Source of the DNA: Thermoplasmata archaeon
GTDB lineage: Archaea; Thermoplasmatota; Thermoplasmata; GCA-020350865
DNA length: 18,021 nt
Direction: 5' to 3'
Assembly (NCBI GenBank): GCA_020351895.1
Contig: CP070672.1
Location: 3,934,564-3,952,584, forward strand
The notes beneath the pieces are model-generated. The model did no database searches. It saw only the letters and a program-made list of their open reading frames with translations, and had not been told where the DNA came from. How positions within the stretch are numbered: the first letter of the stretch is position 1; every line of letters begins with the position of its first letter. A program made the position numbers and the translations under genes. This document shows, in pieces, positions 2,749-17,606 of this stretch.

Positions 2749-2867
2749 ACCTAATACCACATTATACCCCCGAACTGGATGGGATATTATCCAAAAATTC
2801 TATCATACCATATTCAAATGGAATGCTGAGATTAAGATGATCAAACCGTGATAGGAGAGTGGGTATT

Positions 2868-4907
2868 ATGACGAGGTCCATTGCTGAGGAACTGGCAAAG
2901 AAGCAGAAGGAAATCTCTGTCTCCGAATTCTTTGAGAGAAACAAGCAGATTTTGGGATTTGACACCTTAACCCGGTCCCTTCTTACCGCCGTGAAAGAGG
3001 GTGTTGACAATTCCCTTGATGCCTGCGAGGAGGCCAATATTCTGCCCGAGATTTCTATCGAGATTAACCAGGTTTCTAGAAATGAGTATCAGATAATAAT
3101 GGAGGACAATGGACCTGGAATCGTGAAAAAGCAGATACCCCATATCTTTGGCAGGTTATTGTATGGCTCAAGATTCCACGCCATCAGGCAGTCAAGGGGG
3201 CAGCAGGGAATTGGCATTTCGGCTGCTGTGATGTACGGCCAGCTCACCACAGGCAAACCCACCCTGGTGCGCTCCAAGACCAAAAGGGAGGATGTGGCCC
3301 ATGAAATAACCCTGATGATGGATACAAAGAGAAACAGACCCGAGGTGCTTAAACAGGATTTTGTGATCTGGGAGCGAAAGGATCACGGAACAAAAGTGGA
3401 GATAAGCCTGAAAGGGAAGTACGTGAAGGCCAAGCAGTCAGTATATGAATATCTGAAAGGCACTGCGATTGTGAATCCCCATGCCCAAATCACGTTCATG
3501 GAGCCAGACGGTACAAAGACCGAATTTAAAAGGGTTACAGAGAAGATGCCTCCTTCAACAAAGGAGATCAAACCACATCCTGAGGGAATAGAGCTCGGAA
3601 TACTCATGAAGATGGCAAAGGCATCAAAAGCTAAGCGAATGACCTCTTTTCTGACCCAGGATTTCTCGAGAATAAGCTCCAGAGTCGCCAAGGAAATCTG
3701 CGAAAAGGCTGCAATCGAGCCCACAATGAAACCCTCGAGATTGAAGCTGGATGGTGCCAATAGAATAATAGAGGCGATAAAACAGGTGAGGATCATGGCC
3801 CCTCCAACAGACTGCCTCTCACCTATAGGCGAGCTTCTCATAAAAAAGGGATTGAAGAATGTAATGGAAGATGTGAGGCCTGATTTTTACGCCCCTCCTG
3901 TTACCAGGGAGCCCTCTGTATATTCAGGCAATCCCTTTCAGGTTGAGGTGGGAATCGTGCATGGAGGTGATCTTACATCGGATGGACAGGTTAAGATTCT
4001 CAGATTTGCAAATCGTGTTCCATTATTGTACCAACAAGGTGGTTGCACATCTACCGCGGCAATTGAAAACGTGGACTGGCGAAGATACGGTTTGGAGCAG
4101 AGGGGAGGAAAGGGCATACCATTCGGCCCTGCAATAATCCTGGTTCATGTTGCCTCCACAAAAATCCCTTTCACATCAGAAGCGAAGGAGGCCATTGCAG
4201 ATATTCCCGAAATCAGGGAGGAGATAGAAAGGGCACTTCGGGCCTGTGCACGAAGACTGCAGATCCATATTAAGAAGAAGGTGAGAAAGAAGAAGACCAG
4301 GGAGAAGTTCGATATAGTCCAGATTATACTGCCCAAGATAGCAGAGAAATCGGCAAAAATTGTTGGCAAACCAGAACCGAATCTGGCACCAATTATAACC
4401 AAGATAATGAATGTGGTGTGGATAGATGATGCAGTTGAGTTTGTGAAAAAGAAGCATCATATAACCATAAGCGTTTACAACTACACGCCATCAAGGAAGA
4501 AGTTCAACCTCTACGCAGTGGTTCCTTCTGGAAGCATTGAGGAAAAGAGCATAAACCCAAAACCTAGCAGAATAAGAAAGAGCGGTAAGATCAGATGGGA
4601 GTTAAAATCAATTCCTTCAACGGAAAAACTGGAAATCACATTCAGCCTGAAAGGCCTGGATGAGGATGACTTTGATGAGGCCGAAATCTATGTTTCCGGT
4701 ATCAATCCTGTTCAGGTTATCGGGGCCGAGCCTCTACCAGGGGATTGGGACCTGGACGAGGAGATAGAGGAACCAACCACACTTGATGACTTCGTAGGAG
4801 AGGAAGACGAAAGAGAGGAGGAAGGCGAGGAGGAGGAAATTATCGAGGAGAATGCTGAGGAGGAGGGCGGCATTGAATCCGAAGGAAAGGCGGCGGAGGC
4901 CGCCTAG
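2868..4907 (+). CDS. top6B: DNA topoisomerase VI subunit B
   Basis: This is the ATPase subunit of the type IIB topoisomerase that, with subunit A, makes ATP-dependent double-strand passages and relaxes or decatenates DNA. The GHKL ATPase fold is clear: N box E44-GVDNSLDA, G1 box D80-NGPGI, and G2 box [10 protein letters not shown] ending near residue 119. The H2TH and transducer regions follow, including the ATP-sensing segment [16 protein letters not shown]-terminal beta-rich extension (from about [12 protein letters not shown]) resembles the Ig-like domain of long Top6B versions. The protein ends in about 50 very acidic residues. I chose the ATG at 2868 (679 residues) rather than the GTG at 2859, because AGGAG at 2853-2857 is 10 nt from the ATG but touches the GTG. 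top6A follows after 13 nt. Confidence 0.96.
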
Positions 4908-6045: not shown

Positions 6046-6813
6046 ATGAAATTCATAGGTATAGACCTTTCCTGGAAGGTCTCCCCTGAAAAACCCGAAA
6101 GAACCGCGGCCGTGGTTCTCAATGAAGAGGGTATGGTAGAAAATAACACCCTTATTACAACAAATGAAGACATAGTCGATTTTGTAAAAAACTACATTGA
6201 TTACGGTACGATCATAGGAGTTGATGCTCCGCTTGTGATACCCTTCGGTGTTAAACAGAGAGATTGCGAACGACTGCTTTTAAGGTGCAAGATTGCGGTT
6301 TTCCCTGGAAATAGGAGATGGTTCATTTCAGCATTTGGAGGGGTGAGGGGCGAGATTTTGGTGAATGAATTTAAGAAAATAAACGTCCTGCTGAAAGATA
6401 ATATTCGTCCAAAGGAGGAGGCAAACACACTTTTTGAGGTATACCCATATTCCTCGTGGAAGGTGCTCTTTAAAAAGGAGGCTGTGCCAAAGTATAAAAA
6501 CACCACAAGAAGTAAAAAGATAGAGGGCTTAAATAGGCTCAAAGGGAAATTAATGGAATCAATCCTCCCCATAAAATTGAGTTTTAAAAGAGACATTCCC
6601 CAATTGTTTGATGTGGATCGTACAGAGTTGAGCAATAAGGCCCTAGATCAACAAGGTGATCTTTTGGATGCACTAATTGCAGCCTATACTGTCCTGGTTT
6701 ATTGGCATTATGGGGACAGAAAGTGTGTTGTACTTGGGGATTTGAAGGAGGGCTTTATCCTCACTTTAGCCAATGATTGTATGAAAAAATTGGCCAAAAA
6801 AGGTAAATATTAA
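6046..6813 (+). CDS. DUF429-family predicted RNase H-fold nuclease
   Basis: The protein has 255 residues and the DUF429 (COG2410-like) pattern of an RNase H-type fold. It has an opening beta strand with Asp (FIGIDLSW, D7), a second acidic strand (IIGVDAPL, D60), an R-x-C-E motif (R72-DCE) and a conserved FEVYPYSSW segment. The C-terminal helix carries GDLLDALIAAY (D205, D208). These acidic residues are consistent with a two-metal nuclease centre, but the substrate of the family is not known. It follows top6A by 30 nt with its own CGGAG at 6035-6039, so it may be read from the top6 transcript. A link to topoisomerase function is only suggested by position. Confidence 0.8.
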   Translation: MKFIGIDLSWKVSPEKPERTAAVVLNEEGMVENNTLITTNEDIVDFVKNYIDYGTIIGVDAPLVIPFGVKQRDCERLLLRCKIAVFPGNRRWFISAFGGVRGEILVNEFKKINVLLKDNIRPKEEANTLFEVYPYSSWKVLFKKEAVPKYKNTTRSKKIEGLNRLKGKLMESILPIKLSFKRDIPQLFDVDRTELSNKALDQQGDLLDALIAAYTVLVYWHYGDRKCVVLGDLKEGFILTLANDCMKKLAKKGKY

Positions 6814-6830
6814 GAATATTATGGACAATA

Positions 6831-6846
6831 CCTCATAGATCTGAGG
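6831..6846. repeat. short inverted repeat after the DUF429 gene
   Basis: CCTCA - 6-nt loop - TGAGG forms a perfect 5-bp stem 18 nt after the stop at 6813. There is no long T run behind it, so a terminator role is doubtful. Confidence 0.25.
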
Positions 6847-6905
6847 CATTGGCACAGGGAATACAAGGTGAAGTTGGTAACCTTAATCATCAGAGGGTGC
6901 ATATC

Positions 6906-7823
6906 GTGGCAGAACATGAAAAACTATTGGGCTTGAAAATTGTGGCCATAATCATAATTGCCTTGGGCATTGTTCTTTTTTTAGGGGCTTTATACACGGT
7001 TGTCACCCGTTCAGATGCGATAATCGATAACGTCCGGATTTTTTCTTTATTGGACGTTATGGTTGCAGCCGATGTATTGGCGGCAGTAGCTGGCCTTTTC
7101 TTTTTTGTGGGATTTGGCATGTGGTTCCTTCGGGGCTGGGCAAAATCCATACTGCTGGTTCTCTCAATGCTGAGTATCGTTCTGTACCCTTTAACTGGCC
7201 TCCTTCTTATATCCTCGGTGGCGGAAAATGAGTGGGAGGTGGAAACATCGGAGATCGTAAGCGCAATCTTCACTGTTTTGGGAATAATCCTTTCCATGTT
7301 CTTTCTATGGTATCTATCACGTCCAAAGGTGGTTTTGGCCTTTGAGGCGCGGGAGATGAGCCTTACCAAGAAGAAGATCCGCGCTTTGGAAGAGAAAATC
7401 GAGCTTGGTAGACAGCAGTGCAATGCTGGAGAGATAACCAAGGCCGAGCTTTCAAAACTGAGGTCGGATTGCCTGGCTGAAGAAAGACTTCTTAGGGCAA
7501 AAATCAGACATTACGAGAAGGTTCGATTGGGAAGGGAGAGGAAAATCAAGGAAACGGCCTTAAAAAAGAAGGAGGCAAAGGAAGAGAAGTTGGCCAAAGA
7601 GGAGGAAAAAAGGTCGGAAAAGGAGGAGAAGAAGGCGGAGCGGAAGGCTGAAAAGGAAGAAAAGAAAGAGGCTAAAGAAAAGAAAGAGGAAAAAACCGAA
7701 GAAAAGGAGGAAACAAAGAAAAAGAAGGACAAAGAGCCAAAAAAAGACAAAGCCGGGCAAACAGATAAGAAAAAGAGGGTCAAATCCGCCTCAAAAAAGG
7801 AACCTAAAGAAGGGGAAGCATAG
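6906..7823 (+). CDS. four-TM membrane protein with long Lys/Glu-rich tail
   Basis: I do not recognise the family. With the GTG start at 6906 the protein has 305 residues. Four membrane segments are visible, beginning near LKIVAIIIIALG, VAADVLAAVAGLF, SILLVLSMLSIVLY and EIVSAIFTVLGII. A soluble helical part with a SHOCT-like short motif follows (IELGRQQCNAGEITKAELSKL). The last 100 or so residues are almost entirely Lys, Glu, Arg and Ala, giving a homopurine DNA strand. I prefer GTG 6906, which has GAGGG at 6894-6898, about 8 nt upstream. The in-frame TTG at 6849 would add 19 non-hydrophobic residues and has no ribosome-binding site. The tail probably forms a single long charged helix, and its partner is unknown. 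Confidence 0.75.
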   Translation: MAEHEKLLGLKIVAIIIIALGIVLFLGALYTVVTRSDAIIDNVRIFSLLDVMVAADVLAAVAGLFFFVGFGMWFLRGWAKSILLVLSMLSIVLYPLTGLLLISSVAENEWEVETSEIVSAIFTVLGIILSMFFLWYLSRPKVVLAFEAREMSLTKKKIRALEEKIELGRQQCNAGEITKAELSKLRSDCLAEERLLRAKIRHYEKVRLGRERKIKETALKKKEAKEEKLAKEEEKRSEKEEKKAERKAEKEEKKEAKEKKEEKTEEKEETKKKKDKEPKKDKAGQTDKKKRVKSASKKEPKEGEA

Positions 7824-7874
7824 GAGTCAAGATAGAAGAATATGTGAAAATTTAAATCACTGATATCCTAAAGC

Positions 7875-7886
7875 TTAAATATAAAA
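7875..7886 (+). promoter_or_regulatory. TATA box for the zinc-ribbon membrane protein
   Basis: TTAAATATAAAA is centred about 25 nt before the ATG at 7905 and no Shine-Dalgarno is present near that ATG. This points to a leaderless mRNA starting at or next to the ATG. Confidence 0.5.
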
Positions 7887-7904
7887 ATGTAGGTCTATAT
7901 TTGT

Positions 7905-9074
7905 ATGGCGGACCTGAACATAAGAGACATGATTTTATTATTGGTTGTTGTAGCTTTCACGATCATTATATTATTTATGGTTTTGAGAATCATGCTGAAG
8001 CTGCGAAAAGGTGAAGATAAGAAAATGAGGAAGGACACCAGGGTTTTAGAGGCCATATCCACTTCGGATGAATCGGACGATGTTTTCAATAGCATCACTG
8101 CAACAAGAAGAATAGCATCCGATCTTAAAAGAAGGGGCATTGACATTAGCAAGGCAGAGGCCCTGATTAGCCAGGCCAGTACCTTTTACAGGGATGGATT
8201 GGAGAATAAGGCCAGATTAACAATAGATGAGGCCAAAGAACTCCTATTTCGCCTGAAGAAGGATTGGGACGAAAAGACAGGATTTGATGTCGTACCTTCT
8301 AGCCCTTCGAGTGAGGAAGGGCATCCAGTCAAACAGGCAGTTGATTTATTTGAAAAGGGTAAGCCCACCACTGATGAGGTGGTAAAACCTGATAAGGAGC
8401 TTCCAGAGCTTTCCAAAGCAATGGAAAAAAAGCCTGATAACTATCTGCCCTCGAAATTCACCATATCCTTGGCAGACACTGCCTGCGAGAATGTCAGGAT
8501 TTCAGGTGTAGATGCCAAGGAGGCTCGCAGACTGCTTTCAGAGGCAAAAGTCTGTTTTGAAAGGGAAGATTATGACGAGGCCTTCAGACTCGCTTTATGC
8601 TCAAAAAAAGAGGCAGAAGCCATTTTGGGAGGTGCCACATCCTTGGGAGGGGAGAGAGACTCGATTTCAGATTTGGCTTTGCAACCTGTGGAACCAGAAG
8701 AGCCCAAAATATGCTCAATTTGTGGTGAGAGTAAGGTACCTTACATATGCATCGAGGTAAAGGATGGAGAGGAAGCCACATGCAGGGAATGTTATGAAAA
8801 GACCATGAAAAAGGCGACAAAACCGGCGGCCGAATTACTCCCACCACCACCTCCTCCCCCACCCATGGGAATAGAAGAGGGAATAAAGCCGGAGGAAAAA
8901 GAGGAGGAAAAGAATTACTGTCCCAATTGCGGTGCCAGGGTAAAAAGTGAGGATGTTTTCTGCGGAAAGTGCGGGAAACCTGTGAAAGAAGAGCTCAAAT
9001 GCGTGGGTTGCGGAACCAAGGTTGAACCTGGGGATATGTTCTGCAGAAAATGTGGTGCCAGGTTGGTCACCTAG
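7905..9074 (+). CDS. membrane-anchored helical-repeat protein with treble-clef-like site and double zinc ribbon
   Basis: The protein has 389 residues and no named family that I recognise. One N-terminal membrane helix (residues about 9-31) anchors a cytoplasmic body. Two helical-hairpin segments resembling TPR-like units are visible: SKAEALISQASTFYRDG.. near 80-110 and AKEARRLLSEAKVCFERED.. near 205-240. A first four-Cys site follows (C270, C273, C293, C296; CSIC...CREC), then a run of eight prolines. The C-terminal double zinc ribbon has C339/C342/C353/C356 and C366/C369/C380/C383. Such ribbons usually mediate protein or nucleic-acid contacts. It ends 11 nt from the end of the convergent JAMM gene, so it is not in that operon. 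A role as adaptor or ligase for the neighbouring conjugation system is conceivable, but the sequence does not show it. Confidence 0.82.
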   Translation: MADLNIRDMILLLVVVAFTIIILFMVLRIMLKLRKGEDKKMRKDTRVLEAISTSDESDDVFNSITATRRIASDLKRRGIDISKAEALISQASTFYRDGLENKARLTIDEAKELLFRLKKDWDEKTGFDVVPSSPSSEEGHPVKQAVDLFEKGKPTTDEVVKPDKELPELSKAMEKKPDNYLPSKFTISLADTACENVRISGVDAKEARRLLSEAKVCFEREDYDEAFRLALCSKKEAEAILGGATSLGGERDSISDLALQPVEPEEPKICSICGESKVPYICIEVKDGEEATCRECYEKTMKKATKPAAELLPPPPPPPPMGIEEGIKPEEKEEEKNYCPNCGARVKSEDVFCGKCGKPVKEELKCVGCGTKVEPGDMFCRKCGARLVT

Positions 9075-9085
9075 ATTCCTTACCG

Positions 9086-10132
9086 CTATCTTTTCTTTAT
9101 GGTCATCCTTCTCTTTGGCCTTGTATAAACCTTCATTGGGATGCTGCTAATTTCATGGAATTTTGTGGAAACCCTACCTAAATGTACCTCCAATTCCCTT
9201 ATTTTTTGAGATAAATGCCTTTCAATCTCAGAGTAGTTTACGTCGTTCCAGGTCAGATATACGATATAATCGGCTATTTCATTTTTTATGGATTCCAAAG
9301 CGGAGCCTAAATCGATATATCCTTTTGGAACGTAGATGGTGGGTGTAAGATTCAGAACCGCTTTTATCTTTACGGAATCATTAATAGGAGAGATTCTGAA
9401 GAAATTCCCCCTTGAATCACCTGTGTTTCCGTCAAGACCTCCTTCAAAAGGAAGAATGCGCAACACGTTGCCAACTGGTCCCTGTTGAATTTCCACGTCA
9501 CTTTCTCCCACTTTCTCATTTATTTCCTTTATCAACTTATCCTCTATGGTCCTGATCATTCTCGTCAAACCCAGTTGTTTATCAAAGTCCTTTTCAAAGG
9601 TCAGGTGAATCTTAGAATTTATGGGGCGCATATAATCCTTGAAATCGATGTTGCTCACGAGGTTTTCCTTGATTTTCTTGGGTTTTTTGCGATACATTAC
9701 ATAGCAGGATATATTGTCGATATCCGTGACAATGGAAACATAATTTTTCATCCTGCTGGATCTGCTTCTTAACATGGCATCATCGGTTCCGCTGTGAAAA
9801 AGTTCTGAAACCCCGAAGAGCTTTCTGAATTCTCCTGACTCTTGATGCATCTTGAAGGGATGGGAGTGATAAAGGCCAACTATACCTACATTCCTGGGAA
9901 ACCTACTTGCCAGCTCTGCCTCCTCAGTGGGGTCCGATTCTGCAGTATATCTTGATTGTTTTTTATACCTGGTACATGCCACTGCATCGCAGATATAAAC
10001 CGTGTCATCTGAAGAGAAACCGGTAAGCCATCCCAGGACCTCATACCCGTGCTCTCTGGCGCCACTAAGTGCATGTTCTATTATGCTTCTCTTCAAATCA
10101 CGTTTCATTACAACATCGGTTTGCCCAGCCAT
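9086..10132 (-). CDS. JAMM/MPN metalloprotease of the UFM1-like cassette
   Basis: This is a 348-residue protein with an N-terminal MPN/JAB domain and a complete JAMM zinc site: E31 (YEVLGWL), H89-S-H91-P and S114-G-T-D117. JAMM enzymes cut isopeptide or peptide bonds after the terminal glycine of ubiquitin-like proteins. The loop between H91 and D117 is about 15 residues longer than in typical JAMM proteins. The C-terminal half (about 165-348) is unfamiliar. It has a predicted coiled or helical part, a Gly/Asp-rich loop (EGGLDGNTGDSRG), beta strands and a basic end (RPKRRMTIKKR). It is the last gene of the cassette, 15 nt after the E1 stop, with GGAG 7 nt before its ATG. The likely job is trimming the Ser-Cys tail of the modifier and/or deconjugation; this is inference from catalytic type and context. 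Confidence 0.88.
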   Translation of the reverse strand: MAGQTDVVMKRDLKRSIIEHALSGAREHGYEVLGWLTGFSSDDTVYICDAVACTRYKKQSRYTAESDPTEEAELASRFPRNVGIVGLYHSHPFKMHQESGEFRKLFGVSELFHSGTDDAMLRSRSSRMKNYVSIVTDIDNISCYVMYRKKPKKIKENLVSNIDFKDYMRPINSKIHLTFEKDFDKQLGLTRMIRTIEDKLIKEINEKVGESDVEIQQGPVGNVLRILPFEGGLDGNTGDSRGNFFRISPINDSVKIKAVLNLTPTIYVPKGYIDLGSALESIKNEIADYIVYLTWNDVNYSEIERHLSQKIRELEVHLGRVSTKFHEISSIPMKVYTRPKRRMTIKKR

Positions 10133-10147
10133 ATTAATTCTCCGAAA

Positions 10148-11086
10148 TCATGTCATGGAATCGAACTTCTTTGCCGCTTCTTCTATCTCCTTGAGCTTCT
10201 TTTCGTCCAAATGCATATTAACCTCACCGCAAACTGGACAGTTTGGGTCAATTTCTCTATGATATCTCTCGATCTCCCCTTTGATGCCGTTGTACATCAA
10301 AAACCCGGCAACCTCCCCGAAATTCAAAAGATATTTGAAGGCTTCCTGGCATTGAAGGGCGGCTATTATTGCCATGGTTGTGGGTAAAGAGGTCATGTGG
10401 CAGATACCGGTTACCCTGTCCTTCCCAGGCTCATTGATGTTCAAGTAGAACTCCATATCCTCCTTCTTTTCTTTAGATTCCTCCACTTGCGCCTCTGGTC
10501 TTTTTATTACCATTCCCAGGGCCATTCGATGGCACCTGTAGCAGGCTGTTTTTCCTGGGATGATCACCTGAACACTTCCCCTTATTCCGTCAAGGCTTGC
10601 ACCGCCGTCTATAAAGGTCTTTTTCTTCTCAACACATTTTGCGTTCATAAACAGCCTGACGCCGAAGGTGTCCACACATCCGAATACCACATCACATTTT
10701 TCGATTTCCTCAATAAAAGTCTTATATCCATCACCTGTGGTGATATCGAATGGATAGACGACGATATCCACATCAAGATTGATATCGGATAGGTAATCCT
10801 TCAATGCATCCACCTTATTCATCCCAATCTGGCTTGGTTTGTAAATCAACCTGTTCATATTGGCCATTTCCAGTTTATCGTAATCGAACAAAACCAGTCT
10901 TCCTATACCAACTCTGGCAAGAATCTCAGCCACTGTTGCACCAAGACCTCCGACTCCCACCACCAAAGCACTTTTTGAGCGAAGCTTTGAGAAATCAGCG
11001 AATTCAAACAGTGCTAATCGTTGATACCTTTCGTCCATTCCAGCCAACCCTTTTGTTTCAGATGAAATATCACGCTCTGGAGCCAA
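10148..11086 (-). CDS. uba5-like: UBA5-like E1 activating enzyme
   Basis: This is an E1/ThiF-fold adenylating enzyme of 312 residues. It should adenylate the C-terminal glycine of the modifier and then hold it as a thioester. The nucleotide loop is G44-VGGLG. The stretch LFDYDKLEMANMNRL (about 66-80) is nearly that of human UBA5 as I remember it. Structural zinc ligands are C182/C185 and C283/C286, the same two-pair layout as UBA5. C229, in TGICHMTSLPTTM, matches the UBA5 catalytic cysteine region (GVC-x3-SLPTTM), followed by YLLNFG (UBA5: FLLNFG). The crossover region before C229 holds a charged insertion (VEESKEKKED). The protein stops 26 residues after the last zinc ligand, so it lacks the long UBA5 tail that binds UFM1 and UFC1. 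The start is TTG 11086 with a strong SD inside the E2 gene; ATG 11038 is the alternative. Confidence 0.93.
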   Translation of the reverse strand: MAPERDISSETKGLAGMDERYQRLALFEFADFSKLRSKSALVVGVGGLGATVAEILARVGIGRLVLFDYDKLEMANMNRLIYKPSQIGMNKVDALKDYLSDINLDVDIVVYPFDITTGDGYKTFIEEIEKCDVVFGCVDTFGVRLFMNAKCVEKKKTFIDGGASLDGIRGSVQVIIPGKTACYRCHRMALGMVIKRPEAQVEESKEKKEDMEFYLNINEPGKDRVTGICHMTSLPTTMAIIAALQCQEAFKYLLNFGEVAGFLMYNGIKGEIERYHREIDPNCPVCGEVNMHLDEKKLKEIEEAAKKFDSMT

Positions 11087-11517
11087 TAGGATACCTCCCT
11101 TTTCAGATACAGGGCAAGACTACAGTGCTCGTTCCACCAGTAGTTCTGCTCCATATGCATGTCGCAGATTCGAAGGCCAAGGATATTGTCATCCAGCTTC
11201 CTGTCGGTGTAGCGCATGAGTTCCGGTACCCTTGCCGCAGGAGGTGTGTATGGATAGGAATCTTTAAACACCAATTCTATGAGATAAGTTCTTCCCTCTG
11301 CGCTTACAGTTCCCTCCCATCGGAGTGCATCATCGCCTATTGGCCTTATGGCGAACCAGCGCTGCTCTTCCTCACTTTTTTCCATGTAATCCACATACTG
11401 AATGTATTTTAAAAGTGCGTACTTCTCCTCCTTGACCCTAAGGGGCCATTTCTCTTCCTTAGGAGAAGCAACAGTGGAGCATTGTAAAAAGTAAAATAGG
11501 TCTGGTTCCTGCTTCAA
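11014..11517 (-). CDS. ufc1-like: UFC1-like E2 conjugating enzyme
   Basis: This E2 has 167 residues, the same length as human UFC1 as I remember it. It should accept the activated modifier from the E1 by transthiolation. Visible UFC1 landmarks, in order, are: a Trp and basic N-terminal helix (W24...R-V-KEEKYALLKYI); WF (54-55) and RW-x-G (67-70); YPYTPPA (89-95) with VPEL (97-100); G114-x-x-I-C118 as the catalytic region; and a WWN segment, SLALYL, WL and QKGW at the end. UFC1 has GGKIC116, PLWARN, LA, WL and QKG at matching places. There is no HPN motif, again as in UFC1. C132 is a second, less likely active Cys. The start is a TTG at 11517; no ATG or GTG lies in frame between the upstream TAA and this codon. 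The 3' end overlaps the E1 gene by 73 nt. Confidence 0.9.
   Translation of the reverse strand: MKQEPDLFYFLQCSTVASPKEEKWPLRVKEEKYALLKYIQYVDYMEKSEEEQRWFAIRPIGDDALRWEGTVSAEGRTYLIELVFKDSYPYTPPAARVPELMRYTDRKLDDNILGLRICDMHMEQNYWWNEHCSLALYLKREVSYWLQSVIFHLKQKGWLEWTKGIND
11093..11100 (-). promoter_or_regulatory. ribosome-binding site for the E1, embedded in the E2 gene
   Basis: On the minus strand AGGGAGGT lies 6 nt before the TTG at 11086. It is the best Shine-Dalgarno match in the cassette and decides in favour of TTG 11086 over ATG 11038 as the E1 start. In the E2 frame the same bases encode part of KREVS. Confidence 0.6.
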
Positions 11518-11530
11518 AGCATCACGTCTT

Positions 11531-11545
11531 GTTATGTTTTATGTT
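11531..11545 (-). promoter_or_regulatory. possible internal promoter before the E2 gene
   Basis: On the minus strand AACATAAAACATAAC is centred about 20-25 nt before the TTG start of the E2, in the 107-nt gap after the modifier gene. It could give a leaderless E2-E1-JAMM transcript separate from the modifier mRNA. The match to the archaeal TATA consensus is modest. Confidence 0.25.
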
Positions 11546-11624
11546 CACAAAGCTCACGGAAAGAATCATCCCATATCATTATGCCGATGAAAGTTCTGAT
11601 GAATACGAATTCCTTTGCGCGGAA

Positions 11625-11888
11625 TCAACAGGAACCCACAACAGAAGGATCTATGACATGTATATTGGTTCCCTGCTCGATTACCTTTTCCACAGTTCCA
11701 CCGGTAATGGGTGTGCCTGCAGGATATGTGGCGCTTAAGATACCAGGATCTTTACCCTGTTTTTTTGCTGCCAGGACCAAAGCCTCCTGGAAGAGCATCT
11801 CCTTTGGAACCTGTACTGTGACAACTGGCTTTTCCGGATCGCTTATGAAGGTAAAACGAAGAGCAACTTTGTTGTCCATTCTAACCAT
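11625..11888 (-). CDS. ufm1-like: UFM1-like ubiquitin-fold modifier precursor
   Basis: This is an 87-residue beta-grasp modifier precursor. Human UFM1 is 85 residues. From memory the two align almost without gaps: KV-x(6)-SDP-x-x-P near residues 7-21 (UFM1 KV-x(6)-SDP-x-x-P), VP at 27-28, F33, AA at 40-41, G58, I61, G73, and the C-terminus V84-G85-S86-C87 (UFM1 precursor ends V82-G83-S84-C85). In eukaryotes a protease removes Ser-Cys to expose the reactive glycine, and the same step is predicted here. It has a single tail glycine rather than the di-glycine of ubiquitin or SAMPs. It is the first gene of the cassette, with GGGAGTGA 5 nt before the ATG. A second in-frame ATG at 11879 is possible. 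Confidence 0.9.
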   Translation of the reverse strand: MVRMDNKVALRFTFISDPEKPVVTVQVPKEMLFQEALVLAAKKQGKDPGILSATYPAGTPITGGTVEKVIEQGTNIHVIDPSVVGSC

Positions 11889-15128: not shown

Positions 15129-17606
15129 ATGGAAAATCATAGGTTCGAAACAGAGTTTGCAGGTAAGAAAGTGATCATAGAATCAGGTCGATTGGCACTT
15201 CAGGCATCGGCATCCGTCACCGTCCAAATGGGCGGTACAGTGGTCCTTGCAACTGTAATGATGTCGAATGAGGCAAGGGAGGTGGACTTCCTTCCGCTTA
15301 TGGTGGATTATGAAGAAAGGTACTTTGCAGCGGGAAGGATAAAGGGTCCCAGGTTCTCAAAGCGTGAGGGTAAACCATCTGCCGAGGCTATGCTCATTGG
15401 AAGAATGATAGACCGGGGCCTTAGACCGCAATTTCCCCAGGATATGCGAAATGATATACAGATAATCTGTCTCCCCTTAAGCCTGGATTATGAGAACAAG
15501 CCAGATATCGCCGCAATTTTGGCTGCTGCAACGGCAATTCATATCTCAGAAATACCCTTTGACGGACCCATAGCCGGAGTCCGGATCTCCCTGGCTAACG
15601 GTCATTATTTGGTGAATCCCACTGCAGATGAGTTGGAATTCTCGGATTTAAATCTCGTGGTCATGGGTGATGGTGATAGGATCACCATGGTTGACTGCGA
15701 TGCCAATGAGGTTCCTGATGAGGATGTGGCGAGGGCTTTTAAAATTGCCATGGAGACAATGGGTCCCATGGCAAGCTTCATGGAGGATATCAGGAATAAG
15801 ATTGGAAAGCCAAAGGCTACAGGGGATCAGTTGATCTTGAAAGGCGAAATCAACCCAGAGGATAAGGAGATAATAGAAGATATCAAGAAGGCTGCTCTTT
15901 CACATCTTGATGAGTATCTCTTCAACACCCCCATAGGATCAAAGGGTGAAAGAAAGGCCATCCTTCACAATTTGGAGGATATACTGGTGGAGGAGTTCAA
16001 GGCTAAACTCGTCACCCCTGAGAGGGATGAGGAAGCCGCCAAGGAACATGTAAAAGGGCTTCTGGGAGGATTTTTTTGGGATTTCATCGAGGAGCAGGTG
16101 ACCCTGGCAATTCTGGAACGGGATTTGCGGGTAGATGGTAGGAAACTGGATCAATTGAGACCATTGTCTTCGGAAGTGGGTGTTCTGCCGAGAACCCACG
16201 GTAGTGGACTCTTTTCAAGAGGAGAGACCCAGATACTTTCTGTCTTGACTCTGGGTGCACCCTTCGATGAGCTTTCAATAGAAACCATGGAGAACGACGG
16301 TGTTCGTAAATATTTCCACCACTACAACTTTCTACCCTATTGTGTGGGCGAGGTAAAGCCGATTCGGGGCGCCGGAAGGCGGGAGATCGGTCACGGAGCC
16401 TTGGCAGAGAAGGCGTTGGGGCCGGTTCTTCCCACGGAAGAGGATTTTCCATACACCATCAGGGTGGTAAGCGAGGTCATGGCTTCCAATGGCTCCTCAT
16501 CAATGGCTGCGACATGCGGCTCCTCTCTAGCACTGATGGATGCTGGCGTGCCCATAAAAAAACATGTGGCAGGCATAGGAATGGGTCTTGCTTCCAACGG
16601 CAAGAAATGGAAGATAGTCACGGATTTACAGGATCTTGAGGACGGAAAAGGAGGCATGGATTTTAAATTCACATCCACAAGAGACGGCATAACCGCAATC
16701 CAGATGGAGACAAAAACCCGCGGTCTATCATATGAAATAATTTCCGCTACATTCCCGCAAATGCGTAAAGCAATATACCAAATCTTGGATAGCATGGAGC
16801 AGGCCATTTTGGTACCCAGAGAGGAACTATCACCCTATGCACCAAGGATCATCAGCTTCATGGTGGATCCTCAGAAGATCGGGGACATTATCGGACCTGG
16901 CGGCAAGATCATACGGGCGATTACAGATGAGCTTGATTTGAAGATAGACATAAACGACGACGGTCTAGTCCTCATTACAACAACAGATGTCGAAAAGGGC
17001 AAACAGGCAGAGGACATGATACGAGACATCGTTCGTGTTGTGGAGGTTGGAGATATATTCGACGAGGCCGAGGTCGTGAAGATCATGCCCTTCGGAGCCT
17101 TCGTCAACTTGACATCGGGTACAGATGGAATGCTTCATGTGTCCGAGCTCGAATGGGGAAGGGTGGAGAAGGTGACAGATCGTGTGAATCTCGGAGACAA
17201 GGTCAGGGTGAAAGTCATAAAAATCGATAATGGGAAGGTGGATGTCTCCATGAAGGCCCTCCTCCCGAAACCCAAGGGATATGTGGACTCAAGACGAGGT
17301 GGAAGAAGGGGTTATAAGAAAAGTGCTGGAAGAGGCGGCGCAAGAGGAGGTATGAAGCGTGAGCCAAATATGAACGTGGGGGATATTTTTGACGAGGCTG
17401 AGGTTGTAAATATCATGTCCTTTGGTGCGTTCGTCAGATTGACTCCAGATACTGACGGATTGCTTCATATCTCGGAGATCGAATGGGGTCGAGTGGAGAA
17501 GGTAACAGACAGATTGAGACTTGGAGACAAAGTGAAGGTGAAAGTCATAAGGATCGAGCGTGGAAAGGTGAATGTCTCAATGAAGGCCCTGCTTCCCAAA
17601 CCATAA
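15129..17606 (+). CDS. pnp: bacterial-type polynucleotide phosphorylase with two S1 domains
   Basis: PNPase degrades RNA 3'-5' using phosphate, releasing nucleoside diphosphates. This protein has 825 residues; bacterial PNPases are near 700. The order is RNase PH 1 (about 10-140), helical domain (about 210-320) and RNase PH 2 (about 335-545). RNase PH 2 holds RTHGSGLFSRGETQ, the phosphate-binding NGSSSMAATCGSSLALMDAG and metal-binding D505/D511 in EDGKGGMDFK. Then come KH with IGPGGK (near 584-589), S1 (640-715), a 34-residue Arg/Gly/Lys linker and a second S1 (750-825). The second S1 is the reason for the extra length. AAGGTGAT precedes the ATG by a few bases. The organism is archaeal by all other genes, and archaea normally use the exosome, so acquisition from bacteria is likely. 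Confidence 0.96.
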   Translation: MENHRFETEFAGKKVIIESGRLALQASASVTVQMGGTVVLATVMMSNEAREVDFLPLMVDYEERYFAAGRIKGPRFSKREGKPSAEAMLIGRMIDRGLRPQFPQDMRNDIQIICLPLSLDYENKPDIAAILAAATAIHISEIPFDGPIAGVRISLANGHYLVNPTADELEFSDLNLVVMGDGDRITMVDCDANEVPDEDVARAFKIAMETMGPMASFMEDIRNKIGKPKATGDQLILKGEINPEDKEIIEDIKKAALSHLDEYLFNTPIGSKGERKAILHNLEDILVEEFKAKLVTPERDEEAAKEHVKGLLGGFFWDFIEEQVTLAILERDLRVDGRKLDQLRPLSSEVGVLPRTHGSGLFSRGETQILSVLTLGAPFDELSIETMENDGVRKYFHHYNFLPYCVGEVKPIRGAGRREIGHGALAEKALGPVLPTEEDFPYTIRVVSEVMASNGSSSMAATCGSSLALMDAGVPIKKHVAGIGMGLASNGKKWKIVTDLQDLEDGKGGMDFKFTSTRDGITAIQMETKTRGLSYEIISATFPQMRKAIYQILDSMEQAILVPREELSPYAPRIISFMVDPQKIGDIIGPGGKIIRAITDELDLKIDINDDGLVLITTTDVEKGKQAEDMIRDIVRVVEVGDIFDEAEVVKIMPFGAFVNLTSGTDGMLHVSELEWGRVEKVTDRVNLGDKVRVKVIKIDNGKVDVSMKALLPKPKGYVDSRRGGRRGYKKSAGRGGARGGMKREPNMNVGDIFDEAEVVNIMSFGAFVRLTPDTDGLLHISEIEWGRVEKVTDRLRLGDKVKVKVIRIERGKVNVSMKALLPKP
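17046..17603 (+). repeat. duplicated S1-domain coding segment in pnp
   Basis: The 228-nt segments 17046-17273 and 17376-17603 each encode 76 residues, from VGDIFDEAEVV to ALLPKP. By eye 61 of 76 residues are identical and no gaps are needed. Third positions have diverged noticeably, so the duplication is not brand new. The 102-nt linker between them encodes RRGGRRGYKK and RGGARGG stretches. Confidence 0.9.

Follow-up and report, generated by a model that had tools for sequence, protein, structure and literature searches.

The eukaryotic UFM1 system consists of the modifier UFM1, the E1 UBA5, the E2 UFC1, the proteases UFSP1/2 and UFL1-DDRGK1-CDK5RAP3. In archaea, the operon of Caldiarchaeum subterraneum carries ubiquitin, an E1, an E2, a small RING protein and Rpn11, and the bacterial Bil and Bub operons are compact sets of a ubiquitin-like protein (Ubl), an E2, an E1 and a JAMM protein. 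Here, we describe a four-gene cassette in an 18,021-nucleotide stretch of DNA (the window; positions 3,934,564 to 3,952,584 of contig CP070672.1, assembly GCA_020351895.1) from a Thermoplasmata archaeon. Very probably, this cassette combines a UFM1-fold modifier, a UBA5-type E1, a UFC1-family E2 and a JAMM protein, which are predicted to attach the modifier through its Val-Gly end to lysines and to remove it again.

According to the available portion of Grau-Bove et al., Ufm1 is absent from archaea and bacteria (PMC4327156), and a later survey from 2023, in its accessible part, confines UFM1 and UFC1 to eukaryotes (PMC10183829). UBA5-like E1 domains occur in archaea and bacteria, as stated in an excerpt of a 2024 review (PMC11354881); therefore, the E1 alone is not new. 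A Nature Communications article from 2022 (PMC9192718), in the part accessible, mentions "Asgard archaeal UFM1" solely as sequences that might serve as an outgroup of Vps22/36, and we suspect that UFL1-like winged-helix proteins are meant. In the literature searched, from which preprints and most subscription journals were absent, we recognised no published report of an archaeal UFM1-UFC1-UBA5 set or of archaeal UFMylation. A prokaryotic modifier-E1-E2 set of UFM1 type reopens the question of where UFMylation originated, and the cassette would give the UFM1 pathway a testable prokaryotic relative.

The E1, E2 and modifier of the cassette

Positions 9086-11888 of the window hold four consecutive minus-strand open reading frames (ORFs), taken mechanically as the longest ones. 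They encode the modifier (11625..11888; 87 amino acids [aa]), the E2 (11014..11517; 167 aa), the E1 (10148..11086; 312 aa) and the JAMM protein (9086..10132; 348 aa), so that all four genes named in the original prediction are present. Its further claim of gene overlaps, TTG starts and ribosome-binding sites held in most respects. The E1 frame starts ahead of the E2 stop codon in the window and in 18/18 related loci (again by longest ORFs), and TTG is the start codon of both the E2 and the E1, with an alternative ATG for the E1 at 11036-11038. Shine-Dalgarno-like sequences lie upstream of the E1 TTG (GGGAGG), the modifier (GGGAGTGAG) and the JAMM gene (GGAG), but a clear ribosome-binding site was not found at the E2 start.

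When the window E1 was searched against the PDB with phmmer, the five best distinct sequences were UBA5 (best E value, 6.2e-50), followed by MoeB at 1.2e-22, with BubCD and Cap2 lower in the match list. The E1 carries a GVGGLG nucleotide motif, two CxxC pairs and both of the UBA5-like strings that had been noted earlier, C229-HMT-SLPTTM and ANMNRL. Cys229 (10400..10402, minus strand) aligns with the cysteine in GVCAASLPTTM of UBA5 and is the predicted thioester cysteine. This cysteine with SLPTTM was found in all 20 cassette E1s readable there and in 0/22 paralogs from related genomes. Over the columns of human UBA5, identity was 34-43% for 21 cassette E1s and 24-29.5% for the 22 paralogs. JGI labels many cassette E1s "ubiquitin-like modifier-activating enzyme 5." We then placed the E1 in a tree of 46 rows (20 cassette E1s, human UBA5, 16 MoeB-like proteins, 6 other paralogs and 3 canonical E1s). 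Human UBA5 and the 20 cassette E1s grouped at 100/98, while the 16 MoeB-like proteins formed a separate group (99/99) and the 6 other paralogs and the canonical E1s also stood apart. Thus, the cassette E1s fall with UBA5 and not with MoeB/ThiF or generic ubiquitin E1s.

The E2 passed the Pfam UFC1 cut-off (38.6 bits; cut-off, 25) and stayed below that of UQ_con (17.9 bits; cut-off, 27). VPEL and GLRIC are present and HPN is absent, as originally predicted, and Cys118 within GLRIC (11164..11166, minus strand) aligns with the cysteine of GGKIC in UFC1 and is the predicted active-site cysteine. Among 5.8 billion proteins we found 93 relatives of this E2; 84 carry a precomputed UFC1 label, and where a source gives them a name it is hypothetical protein. 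All 93 lack HPN, and G-x-[RK]-[ILV]-C-DMHM occurs in 90 of them. A 21-row E2 profile searched against the PDB matched 29 distinct sequences, of which the best 26 were UFC1 (7.5e-9 to 3.4e-7), many of these being variants of the human protein; the remaining three rows start at 0.052. Cys118 is kept in 20/21 rows of the underlying alignment (A1), and row 21 lacks that stretch. Twenty aligned E2s are 54-84% identical to that of the window, and close to their N termini cassette E2s and UFC1 both show T-x-A-x-P-x(4-5)-W-x-x-R-x-x-E-E. Across 20 related genomes, UFC1 was above the Pfam cut-off in 19, every time at the cassette. UFC1 has TAK in place of HPN, according to part of a review (PMC10952357). 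Near that position the cassette E2 has TDRK and a longer loop to the cysteine, and the lack of an exact TAK match qualifies the conclusion that this E2 is closer to UFC1 than to the ubiquitin type. One E2 relative, P0093, is without a middle stretch that includes the catalytic cysteine; this may reflect faulty assembly or an inactive enzyme.

The window modifier ends in VVGSC*. We aligned it with 32 of the 45 relatives found, giving 33 rows; Val-Gly is invariant in all 33, and 22 end exactly at VG. The Val-Gly-Ser-Cys end that had been singled out is therefore present, with Val-Gly as its invariant part; the SC is an incidental, variable tail that is not conserved among relatives. Codons Val84, Gly85 and Ser86, the first tail residue (11631..11639, minus strand), mark the predicted mature end and cleavage point. 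Section 7 of a FEBS J 2023 review (PMC10952357) describes a valine ahead of the C-terminal glycine as unique to UFM1. A shuffle test against human UFM1 gave z = 11.4 for the window modifier. When its predicted fold was compared with known structures, UFM1 chains took the first 15 places with Foldseek and the first 11 with VIA-align; among them, 1j0g and 1l7y bear old hypothetical-protein names and were taken as UFM1. The modifier fold list also includes, further down, a bacterial Ubl, which we take to be Bil. The predicted fold thus places UFM1 first and suggests that the modifier shares the UFM1 fold, with the qualification that it falls below the Pfam Ufm1 cut-off.

These results bear on the alternative in which a MoeB-type E1 activates a modifier that carries sulfur (ThiS/MoaD/SAMP-like). 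NCBIfam models for MoeB, ThiF and the SAMP E1 do match the window E1, as a desampylase model does the JAMM protein, but all of them below their cut-offs. With a UFC1-family E2 between modifier and E1, a VG rather than GG end, a predicted fold nearest UFM1 and separate MoeB-like genes in related genomes, we consider the sulfur-carrier explanation very improbable.

Several observations weigh against assigning the cassette to the UFM1 type. Pfam Ufm1 gave the window modifier 13.9 bits (E = 0.054) and missed the cut-off of 27; it reached E ≤ 1 in 7 of the 33 modifiers, at best 0.041, and only 1 of its 13 weak matches across the 20 genomes lay at a cassette. The 33-row modifier profile (A2) had no match in the PDB at E ≤ 10; therefore, the modifier assignment was moved to the fold and shuffle tests. 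In these, 9/33 modifiers had z ≤ 3, and two UFM1 entries (6izg at Foldseek rank 42 and 1wxs at VIA rank 31) stood amid folds of other kinds. The fold predictions cover the modifier and the JAMM protein. The sole eukaryotic UBA5 in the E1 tree sits on a long branch, which drew a program warning that it may mislead. The E1 itself ends 26 residues past its second and last CxxC pair. In the part of the review available, the UFM1- and UFC1-binding C-terminal sequences of UBA5 reach residue 404 (PMC10952357), so the cassette E1 has no room for such a tail. The E1 is thus UBA5-like in its scores, its Cys with SLPTTM and its place in the tree, but not in its C terminus. Locus L004 has the E2, E1 and JAMM genes (6709-9393), and a modifier was found neither there nor elsewhere in that metagenome-assembled genome (MAG). 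UFL1 had no match in the 20 genomes, in a search of unproven sensitivity. DDRGK matched weakly in 6/20 genomes and above the cut-off in none, and 5/14 control genomes matched too.

Predicted pathway and known ubiquitin-like systems

We show directly which genes are present, their order and homology, the conservation of catalytic residues and, as predictions, the folds of the modifier and the JAMM protein; that the cassette works like a UFM1 conjugation system we infer from these parts. In the pathway we propose, the JAMM protein would first trim the tail where one is present (SC here), exposing Gly85. The E1 would adenylate Gly85 and hold the modifier as a thioester on Cys229, a residue of the adenylation domain like the catalytic cysteine of UBA5. 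The modifier would then be handed to Cys118 of the E2, which would conjugate it to lysines of its targets. A zinc-ribbon protein encoded convergently downstream, whose N terminus in the window genome resembles a membrane anchor, may guide this step. Finally, the JAMM protein would release the modifier, in the role of the eukaryotic cysteine protease UFSP. The original prediction of a UFM1-type set withstood the tests open to it, namely the E1 tree, the modifier fold and the match of the E2 to Pfam UFC1.

The cassette has in common with the eukaryotic system the predicted modifier fold with its VG end, a single-domain E1 with Cys and SLPTTM, and a UFC1-family E2 without HPN. It differs in that a JAMM gene lies in the operon where eukaryotes have the UFSP cysteine protease, in the absence of the UBA5 tail, in the TDRK near the TAK position, in the failure to detect UFL1 and in its arrangement as one operon. 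Lacking the UBA5 tail and a recognisable UFL1, it offers a minimal system.

The Caldiarchaeum operon has the same archaeal Ubl-E2-E1-JAMM set, and its Rpn11 homologue is the best sequence match of the cassette JAMM domain. However, the cassette has UFM1-, UFC1- and UBA5-type parts and a zinc-ribbon neighbour instead of a RING protein; its E2 is below the UQ_con cut-off, and its modifier ends in VG and not in a diglycine. The Bil and Bub operons, similarly compact, differ from it by score in their E1 and modifier families. Alternatively, the cassette may belong with the Caldiarchaeum, Bil and Bub operons as a further ubiquitin-like system of prokaryotes, its UFM1 likeness reflecting convergence or an ancestry common to all E1/E2 systems. 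We think this improbable, as three core proteins separately point to their UFM1-pathway counterparts and the same archaea have separate ubiquitin-type sets.

These sets were recognised from UQ_con E2s, which exceed the cut-off in 13/20 cassette genomes. Four regions (L061-L064, from genomes G001, G005, G017 and G003) contain short ORFs that end in GG plus a few residues, with an E1 nearby in 4/4, and Pfam confirms a UQ_con E2 and a JAB protein in two of them. The E1 of the ubiquitin-type set at L054 (G005) has canonical ubiquitin E1s as its best PDB matches, and UFM1 likeness was not found in the putative modifiers of these sets. Thus, cassette archaea seem to run a UFM1-type and a ubiquitin-type system in parallel. 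At L064, a 356-aa ORF (2811-3881) has zinc-finger-like Cys pairs at its start and the ubiquitin-type modifier-like end PDPEGGI; it adjoins E2-like and E1-like ORFs.

The JAMM protein, distribution and origin

We searched a genome collection (84,980 species) with two peptide patterns, which relatives without those peptides escape, and confirmed 18 cassette loci, all archaeal by title. Around the E2, the gene order is kept for the modifier in 17/18, for the E1 in 18/18 and for the JAMM gene in 16/18, and its recurrence in 18 loci is therefore more than chance. The JAMM gene is missed at L001 and L010, the latter at a contig end, and is cut by contig ends at L009 and L018. The closest relatives in the collection are the MAGs of L001 and L002 (Methanomassiliicoccales archaeon and Thermoplasmata archaeon). 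At L001, 100 N (8217-8316) lie within the E1, probably a scaffold gap, and the JAMM gene is unreadable there. The L004 E1 extends about 68 residues past the part aligned with the window E1. The E2 was found in 6/389 sampled genomes of the phylum. The cassette is thus archaeal as originally stated, but rather than belonging to one archaeon it occurs sporadically among Thermoplasmata and among MAGs whose titles read Euryarchaeota or Methanomassiliicoccales.

Eukaryotic contamination within the metagenome bin is hardly credible, since the window contig carries the archaeal topoisomerase VI A and B as well as ribosome-binding sites, and the cassette is also present in 18 archaeal records, whose contigs range from 3.7 kb to 5.2 Mb. 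Transfer into archaea from a eukaryotic donor is compatible with the proposed mechanism and would leave the cassette silent on the origin of UFMylation. The patchy spread, 6/389 genomes of the phylum, is in keeping with it, as is the E1 tree, in which the cassette E1s alone group at 43/79 and the placement of UBA5 outside or inside them is unsettled. We nevertheless consider such a transfer unlikely. The relatives are operonic and as diverse as the identities of the 20 E2s indicate, and a transfer would require the gain of a JAMM gene with an intact metal site and the loss of the UBA5 tail.

The JAMM protein passes the Pfam JAB cut-off and has a second domain C-terminal to the first. Glu31 (codon 10040-10042) and the motif HSHP...SxTD (9782..9868, minus strand; H89, H91, S114 and D117) are invariant in 15/15 JAMM proteins; in the JAMM family these residues have metal-binding and catalytic roles. 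Foldseek matches listed for the JAMM model were Rpn11, CSN5, AMSH and other MPN proteins, and BubCD is in the list of the other fold comparison. In that one of the two comparisons, the model aligned over its length only with residues 11-324 of C. elegans UfSP, the non-catalytic half of this UFM1 protease. C. elegans UfSP and human UFSP2-ODR4 may share with the archaeal protein an MPN domain and a second domain behind it; in contrast, the archaeal protein keeps the metal-site residues of its MPN domain and is without the C78 cysteine-protease domain. The non-catalytic MPN and N-terminal domains kept in UFSP2/ODR4 may descend from the two-domain body of the JAMM protein.

We put forward, as a tentative proposal that is plausible but toward which we do not lean, that UFMylation is a prokaryotic invention and the cassette a surviving form of the source of the eukaryotic pathway. 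The active JAMM protein would be the original UFM1 protease, which would have lost its metal site after a cysteine protease was recruited and would persist in UFSP2/ODR4, where it would form the inactive MPN domain and the N-terminal domain. The puzzle of inactive metalloprotease-like domains in these proteins would then become a testable hypothesis of descent. The link to UfSP has to be set against its own evidence: identity in the alignment is 6% and the root mean square deviation 4.7-5.5, UfSP is absent among the 50 Foldseek matches listed for the JAMM model, and neither Pfam nor UfSP2_N connects the two proteins. Pfam UfSP2_N gave three weak matches in the 20 genomes, none at the cassette, and matched 2 control genomes as well. 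ODR4 is in neither JAMM fold list among the matches listed. Peptidase C78 (UFSP) did not match the JAMM protein or any of the 20 related genomes, and 14 control genomes were equally silent.

The convergent neighbour and further observations

Directly downstream of the cassette and convergent with it lies the zinc-ribbon gene (7905..9074, plus strand in the window). Its family is found there in 13/14 readable loci, the window included; it is missing at L003, stretches of N cover the spot at L001 and L005, and the contigs of L009, L010 and L018 end. The conserved core has three Cys-pair modules, recognised by eye, with matches to Pfam zinc ribbons. The proteins of the window, L002 and L004 are longer and open with a hydrophobic segment. 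By its position, this protein is a candidate E3 or adaptor.

We also considered an RPL26-like target, ribosomal uL24. Lysines in its C-terminal tail number 0-7 at 20 loci of cassette genomes and 0-29 at 29 loci of genomes without a cassette match; in 7 of the latter the motif was not found, and lysines were counted over a fixed last 30 residues instead. Tail lysines are not enriched, and an RPL26-like target is therefore unsupported. Some uL24 proteins of cassette genomes (L076-L080) have a long acidic C-terminal tail, for which a link to the cassette was not seen.

Elsewhere in the window, the plus-strand gene at 15129-17606 encodes a protein that scores 876 bits as polynucleotide phosphorylase (cut-off, 525) and contains two S1 stretches. 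Archaea usually depend on the exosome, and this gene lies on an archaeal contig.

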